A stretch of DNA of 51,356 bases from Acidimicrobiia bacterium. Its GTDB lineage: Bacteria > Actinomycetota > Acidimicrobiia > Spongiisociales > UBA11373. Positions 20,837 through 31,350 of the stretch are shown here, one piece after another; the first letter of the stretch is position 1, and the number at the start of each line of letters is the position of its first letter. The position numbers and the translations under genes are program-made. The stretch spans positions 1 through 51,356 of the forward strand of contig JBBDWO010000003.1 in NCBI GenBank assembly GCA_040902765.1, read 5' to 3'. Under the pieces are notes generated by a model. The model was not told the DNA's origin. It ran no database searches and was given only the letters and a program-made list of their open reading frames with translations.

Positions 20837-22257
<1,421 letters not shown>

Positions 22258-22268
<11 letters not shown>

Positions 22269-22476
22269 CGTCTCGCGTCGCAATCTGCCACATCCTCCAG
22301 AAGCCGATCACCGATCCGCCGATGATCCCGATCACCACCAGGAGCGGGTACGTGCCCAGAGCCTTGTCGCCCAGAAACCCCAGCAGTAGCCCAGCCATGA
22401 TGGACCCGAAGAAGGCCGTGGAGTCGACGGTGGCCGCGGTGTATTCGGCCACCCGGCGGTGGGCGGAGACCTTCAT
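22258..22476 (-). CDS. AtpZ-like small membrane protein, first gene of the atp operon
   Basis: 72 residues with two transmembrane helices (STAFFGSIMAGLLLGFLGDKALG and PLLVVIGIIGGSVIGFWRMWQIA). The GxxxGxxxD and final GFxxM(Y/W)xI pattern is that of the AtpZ/AtpI F-ATPase accessory family. GGAGGGG lies upstream of the ATG. It overlaps the following AtpI-like gene by 11 nt. It is preceded by a candidate promoter and operator. Confidence 0.7.
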
Positions 22477-22501: not shown

Positions 22502-22519
22502 TTGTGATTTCCTTCACAA
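22502..22519. promoter_or_regulatory. CRP/FNR-type operator upstream of the atp operon
   Basis: TTGTGA-N6-TCACAA is a perfect dyad and contains the CRP consensus TGTGA-N6-TCACA. It overlaps the predicted transcription start of the promoter at 22518-22546, which would favour repression. Confidence 0.55.
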
Positions 22520-22546
22520 TCTATCGCCGCGGGGTGTGTGTCGCAA
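22518..22546 (-). promoter_or_regulatory. probable atp operon promoter
   Basis: On the minus strand TTGCGA (22546-22541), a 17-bp spacer and TAGATT (22523-22518), about 40 bp before the first operon start codon. Confidence 0.45.
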
Positions 22547-22553
22547 CCGGCGG

Positions 22554-23828
22554 TCATACGTGCCCCGGGAACCCCGGAGGATACGCCGGGAGCGCCGCAG
22601 CCATCTCGGCGACCCTACCCCGCACCCCGTCCAGGGTGGCCGCGTCGTCGCGGCCGCGCAGGGCGGTGGCGATGAGCCGACCAACCTCGGCCACCTCGGC
22701 TTCCTTCATCCCGCAGGTGGTGGCGGCGGGCAGCCCGATGCGCAGGCCGGTGGCCCGATACGGCGGCCGTGGGTCGAACGGGATGGTGTTGAAGTTGAGT
22801 GTGATCCCCACCGTCTGGAGGAGCCGGGCGGCGTCGCGCCCGGTCAGGTCCTCGTCGACGGAGCGCAGGTCGATGAGGAACAGGTGGTTGTCGGTGCCGC
22901 CCGACACCACCCGCAGCCCGTCGCCGGTGGCCGCCTCGGCCATGGCCCGGGCGTTGGCGACGATCTGAGCGGCGTAGTCGCGGTAGTCCTGGGTGGCGGC
23001 CTCGTGGAAGGCGACCGCCTTGGCGGCGATGTGGTTGTTGATCGGCCCGCCCTGGACGTTGGGGAACACCCCCTTGTCGATCTCGGCGGCGTACTCCTCG
23101 GTCGACAGGATGAGCCCGCCGCGGGGACCGCGCATCGCCTTGTGGGTGGTGGCGGTGACCACGTCGGCGTGCGGCGTCGGGTTGGGGTTGGCTCCCCCGG
23201 CGATCAGCCCGATGATGTGGGCGGCGTCGACCACGAACAGCGCCCCAACTTCGTCGGCCACCCGCCGGAACGCCGCCCAGTCGATGATCCGCGAGTAGGC
23301 GGAGAACCCGGCAACGATCATCCGGGGCCGCTCCTTGCGGGCCAGCTCGGCCACCTCCTCCATGTCGACGACCTCGGTGTCGGGGTCGACCCCGTAGGAG
23401 ACGAAGTCGAAGAGCATCCCGGAGAAGTTGACCGGGGACCCATGGGTGAGGTGCCCGCCCTGGTCGAGCTTCATCCCCATGATCTTGTCGCCCGGCTTGA
23501 GCAGCCCGAAGTAGACCGCCATGTTCGCCTGGGCACCCGAGTGGGCCTGCACGTTGGCATGAGCGGCACCGAACAGGGCCTTGGCCCGCTCGATGGCGAG
23601 GGACTCGACCTCGTCGATGACGGCGCACCCCTCGTAGTACCGCTTGTCCGGATACCCCTCCGAGTACTTGTTGGTGAGGATCGATCCCGAGGCCTCCATG
23701 ACGGCGCGGGACACGAAGTTCTCCGACGCGATCAGGTGAATGTTGCTGCGCTGCCGATCCGCATCCTTGTTGATCAGCCCCTCGACCTCAGGGTCGACTT
23801 CAGCCAGATGAGCGTCCGCCCGCGACAT
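22554..23828 (-). CDS. glyA: serine hydroxymethyltransferase
   Basis: PLP enzyme of about 424 residues that interconverts serine and glycine and supplies one-carbon units. Marks: [38 protein letters not shown], the PLP-lysine motif [14 protein letters not shown] and [18 protein letters not shown] near the end. ATG at 23828 is the family N-terminus; the longer frame from 23906 runs through a heptamer tandem repeat and is rejected. glyA upstream of the atp operon on the same strand is a common actinobacterial neighbourhood, but the CRP-type dyad and promoter between them suggest separate control. Confidence 0.96.
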
Positions 23829-23854
23829 GAAGGCGAGGGTAGCGAGGGGGGAGG

Positions 23855-23896: not shown

Positions 23897-24128
23897 CCTC
23901 ACCCATCGGTCAGCGACCTACGGTCGCTGCAGCCTCCTCCACGGGGAGGAGAGGCCTCGCGACGCGCACGCCCTCCCCCTCCGTCTCGGCCCTACCGGGC
24001 CGATCCACCTCCCCCTTCGGGGGAGGAGAGTCTGTGGGATGGCCTCGGGCTGCTTCAGGACTCTCTCCCCCCGAAGGGGGGAGTACCGCCGAAGGCGGGG
24101 AGGGGGGAGGGCTAACGCGTCGCGATCA
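23897..24128. repeat. GC-rich palindromic repeat R2, a full element
   Basis: The most complete copy. The core 23957-24125 starts with TCGCGACGCG and ends with ACGCGTCGCGA, and inside the ends lie CCCTCCCCCTCC and GGAGGGGGGAGGGC, so the two ends are inverted repeats. Between them: GTCTCGGCCC-TAC-GGGCCGA, the CCCCCTTCGGGGG hairpin, a unique spacer of about 40 bp, the CCCCCCGAAGGGGGG hairpin and GCCGAAGGC. It fills the gap between glyA and the DUF559 gene. Confidence 0.85.
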
Positions 24129-24179
24129 CTCCAAAGCGACCCCCTAGCAACACACCCAAGAACCCCGCACCCTGACAGC

Positions 24180-24551
24180 ATGTCGAGGCCACCCCACGAC
24201 CCGATCACCGGCCACCGCGCGAGAGCCCTCCGGAATCACCTGACGATCCCCGAAGCACGCCTCTGGGGCTGCATCCGACGCAATCAGCTGGGTGTGCGCT
24301 TCCGACGGCAGGTCCCCATCGGCCCGTGGATCGTCGACTTCGCCTGCCTCAACCCCAAGATCGTCATCGAGGTCGACGACCCTTCACACGACTGGCCAGA
24401 CGAAGCCAACCGCACCCGCTACCTGGAGAGCCTCGGCTTCACCCTCCTGCGCTTCGACAACAAGGACGTCATCGAGATCGACGCCGTCGTGCGATCGATC
24501 GAAACCGCCATCGGCGCCCTCCAACGAGGCGAACCCCTCCCATGGGATTGA
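24180..24551 (+). CDS. DUF559 / Vsr-like endonuclease-fold protein
   Basis: 123 residues matching the DUF559 family, which has the fold of very-short-patch-repair (Vsr) nucleases. Signature in order: LRNHLTIPEARLWGCIRRNQLG, VRFRRQVPIGPWIVDF, PKIVIEVDDPSHDW, RTRYLESLGFTLLRF. The acidic residues in VDF and IEVD and the His are the likely catalytic set and are present, so it looks intact. The gene stands alone, and palindromic repeat R2 ends 54 bp before its start while R3 begins at its stop, with facing ends in inverted orientation. No methylase or restriction partner is nearby, which argues against a classical Vsr role. A part in moving or processing the repeats is my inference. Confidence 0.85.
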   Translation: MSRPPHDPITGHRARALRNHLTIPEARLWGCIRRNQLGVRFRRQVPIGPWIVDFACLNPKIVIEVDDPSHDWPDEANRTRYLESLGFTLLRFDNKDVIEIDAVVRSIETAIGALQRGEPLPWD

Positions 24552-24552
24552 C

Positions 24553-24719
24553 CCGACGCGTCGCGAGGCCCACGTAGCGATCGCCCTCCCCCCTCCCCGC
24601 CTTCGGCGGTACTCCCCCTACGGGGGGAGAGAGGGCCTACACACTCTCCTCCCCCGAAGGGGGAGGTGGCAGCGACCGCAGGTCGCTGACGGAGGGGGAG
24701 GGCTGACGCGTCGCGAGGC
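24553..24719. repeat. GC-rich palindromic repeat R3, reverse orientation
   Basis: It begins right after the DUF559 stop with ACGCGTCGCGAGGCCCACG, then CCCTCCCCCCTCCCC, GCCTTCGGC, the CCCCC-TA-CGGGGGG hairpin, CCCCCGAAGGGGG, GCAGCGACC-GCA-GGTCGCTG and GGAGGGGGAGGGC, and it closes with TGACGCGTCGCGAGG. The end directly abuts the stop codon of the convergent toxin-like gene. Confidence 0.85.
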
Positions 24720-25136
24720 CTATCGATCACCCAACCAGTACTCCCGCAACCGCTGCACCGCCTCGTCCTTCGTCATGGCGCGGACCTCCTCCTCGGGCAG
24801 CCCCACGCGCTCAACCAACTGATAAACCACCTCCGCCGGAAGCCCACCGGGCCTCTCCGCTACAGGCTGCGATCGCGCCGGAGGCGTGCGGTCGCGCACG
24901 CATGCCCAAAACTCCTCCTCGCTGACCTTCAGCTGATCTTTGAGGATGTGACCCCACATCCCCTTGCCGTAGGTGTCCTTTGCCGACGGAGGATGCGAGA
25001 TCCGGGTCCTCAGGATGTCGTCGCCGACAACCAGCTGGAACACGACGTGGTGACCGGATCGCTTCTGCACCCAGCCTTCGACCTGCACGAACCGGAGATG
25101 ATCGGCCCGGGTGGGCACGGGCCAGTCGTCACCCAC
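24720..25136 (-). CDS. toxin-like protein, 'cytotoxic translational repressor' family
   Basis: 138 residues. The pattern VQVEGWVQKRSGHHVVFQLVV...ILRTRISHPPSAKDTYGKGMWGHILKDQL.VSEEEFWACV, followed by a C-terminal part with LPAEVVYQLVERVGLPEEEVRAMTKDEA, is that of actinobacterial proteins usually annotated as cytotoxic translational repressor of a toxin-antitoxin system. The gene begins 4 bp after the stop of the upstream partner. The activity of this family is poorly characterised; the name comes from annotation practice. The start appears to be a GTG. Confidence 0.55.
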   Translation of the reverse strand: MGDDWPVPTRADHLRFVQVEGWVQKRSGHHVVFQLVVGDDILRTRISHPPSAKDTYGKGMWGHILKDQLKVSEEEFWACVRDRTPPARSQPVAERPGGLPAEVVYQLVERVGLPEEEVRAMTKDEAVQRLREYWLGDR

Positions 25137-30591: not shown

Positions 30592-30608
30592 TTGTGAAAT
30601 ATTTCACG
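30592..30608. promoter_or_regulatory. CRP/FNR-type dyad upstream of a membrane-protein gene
   Basis: TGTGA-AATATT-TCACG (30593-30608), within a larger dyad GCTTGTGAAATATTTCACGAGC that has one mismatched pair. It is AT-rich in a GC-rich setting and about 35 bp before the AAGGAG of the next gene. Confidence 0.45.
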
Positions 30609-30639
30609 AGCACTGACTAGGACACAAGGAGCAACCCCA

Positions 30640-31350
30640 ATGGCCCACCGACTCAAGGTTCTCGGGATGGTGCTGATGGTCTTCGGTTTCGGCTTTCTGG
30701 TGGCGGCCGGCGTGGCCTTCTTCAAGGTCCAGGACGGCTACACGTCACTGCAGGCATTCAGCGAGACCCAGGGCGTCGAACTCAGCTACAACGACGACGG
30801 GCAACTGATCGACCGCGGCACCACGGAAGGTGCCGATGCGATCATGAGCCTGCTGGTCGACGACTGGAAGTACCCCGTGGTGCAGGGGGACATCGATCCC
30901 GACGATCCGCTGGTCAACACCGCCTCCGAGTACATGTATCAGATGGCGACGATCGTCTATCACACCCTGAACGGCACCCAGCGGGTGACCCTGGCCGAGG
31001 ACGTCGAGTACGAGGGCACCGTCTACGAGGCGGGCGTGTACGAGTTCGAGGTGGACGGCCGCTACTGGAGCGACTTCAACCGCTCGCACCCGATCGAGGG
31101 TCGTGCCCGTGACCTGGCGTGGAGCGGAACCGCCCATGCCCTGGTCGCCGAGCTCGGCGTCGGCACGGTCACCCACTCGGCCCTGCAGATGGGCCTGGCC
31201 ATCACCGGAGCCTTCGCCGCCCTCGGGTTCATGTTCCTGCTGCTGGGCGCCGGCTTCGTCTGGGTGAGCAAGGTTGACCTGATGGCACTGCTGCTGGCCC
31301 AGGGAATCGTCAAGAAGGAAGACGACCTGCCCCTCGCCACCACCGACTGA
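30640..31350 (+). CDS. membrane-anchored protein of unknown function
   Basis: 236 residues. An N-terminal transmembrane helix (VLGMVLMVFGFGFLVAAGVAFF), a soluble part of about 150 residues exposed outside (TEGADAIMSLLVDDWKYPVVQGDIDPDDP, YMYQMATIVYHTLNGTQRVTL, YEAGVYEFEVDGRYWSDFNRSHPIEG) and a second helix (GLAITGAFAALGFMFLLLGAGFVWV) with a short acidic tail. AAGGAG precedes the ATG. The layout resembles a family common in Actinobacteria but I cannot name a function. It has its own upstream dyad and ends at a hairpin, so it is probably a single-gene unit. Confidence 0.7.
   Translation: MAHRLKVLGMVLMVFGFGFLVAAGVAFFKVQDGYTSLQAFSETQGVELSYNDDGQLIDRGTTEGADAIMSLLVDDWKYPVVQGDIDPDDPLVNTASEYMYQMATIVYHTLNGTQRVTLAEDVEYEGTVYEAGVYEFEVDGRYWSDFNRSHPIEGRARDLAWSGTAHALVAELGVGTVTHSALQMGLAITGAFAALGFMFLLLGAGFVWVSKVDLMALLLAQGIVKKEDDLPLATTD

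Follow-up and report, generated by a model that had tools for sequence, protein, structure and literature searches.

The inverted repeat lying over the predicted transcription start of the ATP synthase (atp) operon in an Acidimicrobiia bacterium is very probably an operator for Rex, through which Rex would repress atp at low NADH, with binding, sign, and NADH response carried over from Rex proteins that have been studied. The original prediction, made on the 51,356-nucleotide stretch of DNA analysed here (the whole of which we call the window), had assigned this site to a repressor of the CRP/FNR family; the repressor-type operator stood, while the family gave way to the Rex form of the motif, the presence of a rex gene, the Rex co-targets, and seven related genomes (family f7). 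The operator, promoter elements, and neighbouring genes in the window are as follows.

22502..22519, minus strand: Rex-type operator (ROP), reading TTGTGAAGGAAATCACAA, one mismatch to TTGTGAAnnnnTTCACAA
22518..22523, minus strand: -10 element TAGATT, from the sequence, with TAGATT or TACATT at the equivalent place in relatives
22541..22546, minus strand: -35 element TTGCGA, from the sequence, with TTG at the same distance in many relatives
22258..22476, minus strand: AtpZ-like protein, 72 aa, first gene of the atp operon (PF09527, 28.4 bits, cut-off 26.6)
21867..22283, minus strand: AtpI-like protein, 138 aa (NCBIfam NF053722, 41.1 bits, cut-off 40)
21064..21879, minus strand: atpB, ATP synthase subunit a (PF00119, 183 bits)
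Down to 18029, after atpB: atpE, F, H, and A, as open reading frames
22554..23831, minus strand: glyA, upstream of the operator (PF00464)

The dyad TTGTGA-N6-TCACAA (TTGTGATTTCCTTCACAA) that had been claimed at the atp start is present at 22502-22519 with zero mismatches, 25 nt from the operon start at 22476, with the operon downstream. On the minus strand, the promoter region is laid out as TTGCGA-17-TAGATTGTGAAGGAAATCACAA, in agreement with the proposed promoter of TTGCGA-17 bp-TAGATT overlapping the dyad, and since TAGATT gives its final two bases to the beginning of the dyad, transcription would be expected to start inside the dyad, at about 22511. The operator would span about -8 to +10 relative to this start, and the geometry is that expected of a repressor-type operator, which would cover both the predicted start and the last bases of the -10 element. 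The promoter scores 8/12 against the sigma-70 consensus, which was too weak for an automatic promoter scan to report it. Of 48 atp regions (relatives and this genome), 18 have the pattern TTGxxx-N16-18-TAxxxT beside the operator, versus 32 of 2400 random positions (1.3%), indicating that the proposed promoter is probably right; a promoter overlapped by the operator is probably a conserved feature of the relatives, as predicted from their sequences. Separately, the true start of the AtpI-like gene may be a codon later than the TTG at 22283. Beyond glyA, at 23918-24730 of the window, are reading frames containing "LPPPRLRRYSPLRGE"-like peptide repeats, which are probably repeat elements of this genome, and the stretch at 24.2-24.55 kb resembles a small endonuclease-like gene.

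Searches of the window (68% GC) and of the 1.99-Mb genome with the Rex operator TTGTGAAnnnnTTCACAA revealed far more close matches than expected. Two sites occur in the window versus 0.15 expected, and none of 100 shuffles held two. Genome-wide, 1, 3, 0, and 9 sites were found at 0, 1, 2, and 3 mismatches, respectively, against 0.0003, 0.017, 0.48, and 8.1 expected from independent base frequencies, i.e., four sites at 0-1 mismatch where about 0.02 were expected, with the three-mismatch count close to expectation. All four precede genes, namely atp, a wblE-like WhiB gene (gap of 26 nt), nosZ (41 nt), and an orphan membrane protein (30 nt), and neither complex I nor a cyd operon was among the targets of these four strong sites. 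The dyad is genuine rather than a product of chance.

Across the order, 41 of 56 genomes carry the operator ahead of atpB at 0-2 mismatches (34 of 56 at 0-1), while permuted-palindrome controls gave no match within two mismatches in 440 trials (eight palindromes, 55 atpB-upstream regions). The 41 sites share the form TTGTGAAnnnn(T/A)TCACAA, which is the Rex form: columns 3-6 and 14-16 are invariant, the outer TT/AA and the A at position 7 hardly vary, and either T or A occupies the 3' inner base. The operator at the atp promoter is old. A good site upstream of atpB was absent in 15 of the 56 relatives, though nearly all of these carry Rex; 58 of 59 genomes overall gave a Rex match. The sole genome without a Rex match (G037, 89% complete) has no operator upstream of atpB and, as one of two such genomes, no 0-1-mismatch site among the matches listed.

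The TGTGA-N6-TCACA core is common to CRP and Rex sites, and the genome encodes a candidate of each kind.

C2:25102-25722: rex, the one clear Rex gene of the genome (NF003992, 305 bits, cut-off 226; PF06971, PF02629)
C7:61496-62254 (G000:C7; L005:1171-1929, minus strand): CRP/FNR-like protein (PF00027 plus HTH_Crp_2, PF13545), alone in this genome in combining both CRP/FNR domains

The encoded Rex is identical to Thermotoga maritima Rex at 10 of 12 DNA-contact residues and keeps all of the base-readers R48, K49, R60, and G61. The T. maritima protein was solved with NAD+ and operator DNA (structure 7WB3; PMC8836258), and its DNA-contact residues are like those seen here, whereas the Thermotogales operator and regulon are unlike.

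Control of the atp operon by a CRP/FNR-family regulator bound at TGTGA-N6-TCACA has several observations in its favour and is nonetheless very unlikely. The half-sites agree with the CRP consensus; the dyad contains the core of a CRP/FNR site, as a Rex operator also does; and the ATCACAA half (for TTCACAA) that is common here fits TGTGA-N6-TCACA equally. In Corynebacterium glutamicum, the cAMP-dependent CRP-family protein GlxR activates the atp operon, atpBEFHAGDC (PMC7026483), and resembles the regulator sought here in being a global regulator on the atp operon with TGTGA-type half-sites; it differs in being a cAMP-dependent activator, while the sites here persist without CRP/FNR proteins. 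The search for crp/fnr-like genes that had been proposed as a check recovered the one CRP/FNR-like protein on C7, so that the refuting condition attached to the original prediction, a genome with no CRP/FNR-family protein, is inapplicable. This protein scored below every CRP/FNR equivalog cut-off (NCBIfam), and PF00325 gave zero matches in the genome. It carries Q at what we take to be the position of E181 in the recognition helix of E. coli CRP (aligned by eye with the E. coli sequence), which counts against CRP. Its gene adjoins ccdA-like and thioredoxin-like genes (named by eye).

It is the f7 genomes that decide decisively for Rex over CRP/FNR. None of the seven (94-97% complete) has a cNMP-binding domain, even at E 0.01, so no CRP/FNR protein is expected there, yet all seven encode Rex, retain the atp operator (1-2 mismatches), and have a perfect operator before wblE. 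A site of CRP/FNR type would be confined to genomes encoding a CRP/FNR protein, and this expectation failed in all seven. Further, G003, assembled as a single contig, has the atp operator and no protein with both CRP domains, and there, as in five further genomes, no single gene had both a cNMP-binding and a Crp-type HTH match. The extended motif, with TT and AA at its outer ends and an A at position 7, likewise argues for Rex and against a CRP/FNR regulator. An arrangement with Rex as the main binder and, where a CRP-like protein exists, competition with it or joint use at some sites would suit the TTGTGA halves common to both consensus sequences and a genome encoding both proteins, but nothing links the CRP-like gene to the sites and its presence does not track the site, leaving this very unlikely. 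Finally, the strand does fold into a 6-bp hairpin (z = -2.3 over a 50-nt stretch), as would be expected if the dyad acted as RNA at the 5' end of the atp transcript. We rejected this as extremely improbable because the predicted start inside the dyad would leave half of it untranscribed, because its letters are kept in 41 genomes without compensating pair changes, and because identical letters recur at unrelated genes.

A Rex operator might also be expected at rex itself. In this genome none stands in front of rex (the best match has six mismatches), while, of 30 relatives with a rex locus, 10 have the start codon of rex inside an operator, which points to autoregulation there. The GTG of the start lies inside TTGTGAA; the rex transcript in those relatives might be leaderless and self-repressed.

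The remaining predicted targets are the genes behind the other strong sites, including a second site in the window that had been placed at 30593; its class was upheld, and it begins at 30592.

30592..30609, plus strand: second Rex-type operator, reading TTGTGAAATATTTCACGA, with a start codon following after 30 nt
30640..31350, plus strand: orphan membrane protein, 236 aa, behind the second operator
L026:5280-7271 (G000:C4), plus strand: nosZ, Sec-dependent nitrous-oxide reductase (TIGR04246, 769 bits, cut-off 625)

Orthologues of the orphan gene stand behind a Rex-type operator in at least 11 relatives, and in at least 12 genomes from three families overall, with proteins 55-68% identical to the window protein and with two operators in three genomes (G010, G020, and G045). 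The family consists of ~230-240-aa membrane proteins that are strongly conserved. Pfam, NCBIfam, and PDB searches returned zero matches for the window protein, and its structure model was poor (pLDDT 66.8, pTM 0.39), with a best fold-search hit of only E 0.099. The WhiB gene (PF02467) appears wblE-like, a name given by likeness, and WhiB genes follow a 0-1-mismatch operator in at least 13 genomes. The nosZ operator has one mismatch. After nosZ come nos-like genes (cupredoxin-like, NosD-like repeat protein, and ABC ATPase, by eye). This site, at C4:10220, was first given to a cyclase-like gene on the opposite strand, and nosZ was preferred as nearer and with a good start gap; divergent control of both genes from it is possible.

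Among relatives, where the nearest-gene assignment used for the remaining sites is a heuristic, rex is also among the genes behind 0-1-mismatch operators, and a sigma-70-type factor follows such an operator in at least seven genomes, with gaps of at least 300 nt in two. These factors are 96-100% alike in four genomes of family f8, and perfect operators precede the factor in four genomes of that family. The operator-linked genes include respiratory or Rex-regulon ones, i.e., atp, wblE, and nosZ, and rex in the 10 relatives above. Our literature search, within the papers available to it, found nothing relevant on Rex in Acidimicrobiia or on Rex with nosZ, and we propose nosZ and the orphan membrane protein, from their operators, as new and less expected candidate targets. 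Whether the order's Rex governs a compact energy-gene set (including the orphan family, nosZ, and in some families the sigma-70-type factor), with the orphan protein being induced by accumulating NADH and acting together with respiration or ATP synthesis, is a proposal that we regard as evenly balanced.

The closest known system is that of Streptomyces avermitilis, where atp and wblE are among the genes that Rex binds and represses, the regulon comprising atpIBEFHAGDC, cydA1B1CD, nuoA1-N1, rex-hemAC1DB, wblE, hppA, and ndh2, and where the operator TTGTGAAnnnnTTCACAA was established by footprinting, EMSA, and ChIP, with TTGTGATACGGTTCACGA as the footprinted atpI operator (PMC5355995). The operator consensus, the atp and wblE-type WhiB targets, and a Rex of the same family are shared with the bacterium studied here; further likenesses are the operator at rex in several relatives and a hemN-like gene behind an operator in one genome (G002). 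By contrast, the S. avermitilis atp operator lies at -50 to -22, whereas here it covers the -10 end and predicted start, and the four strong sites here include nosZ and the orphan gene and do not include rex, nuo, or cyd. This likeness suggests an old origin for the pairing of Rex with atp and wblE known from Streptomyces.

Rex is a dimer that binds NAD+ or NADH and senses the NADH/NAD+ balance. At low NADH, Rex with NAD+ would occupy the TTGTGAAnnnnTTCACAA-type operator, covering the start site of the atp promoter along with the last part of its -10 element, and would block RNA polymerase or initiation. A slowing of the respiratory chain would raise NADH, and Rex carrying NADH would then leave the operator; its release would free the atp operon, the WhiB gene (wblE), nosZ, and the orphan gene at 30640 together. 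The repressive sign follows from the operator geometry and the known action of Rex, and the net effect in cells may differ, since oxygen limitation lowered atp operon expression in S. avermitilis instead of raising it, for other reasons and even when Rex was missing (PMC5355995).

Together, these analyses make the site at the atp promoter the probable operator of an already known type of switch, followed here through a branch of the Actinobacteria that has received little study. For the control of ATP synthase in a mostly uncultured actinobacterial order, a reading based on NADH/NAD+ replaces one based on cAMP or an oxygen sensor, and a conserved orphan membrane protein and nosZ are named as candidate Rex targets.
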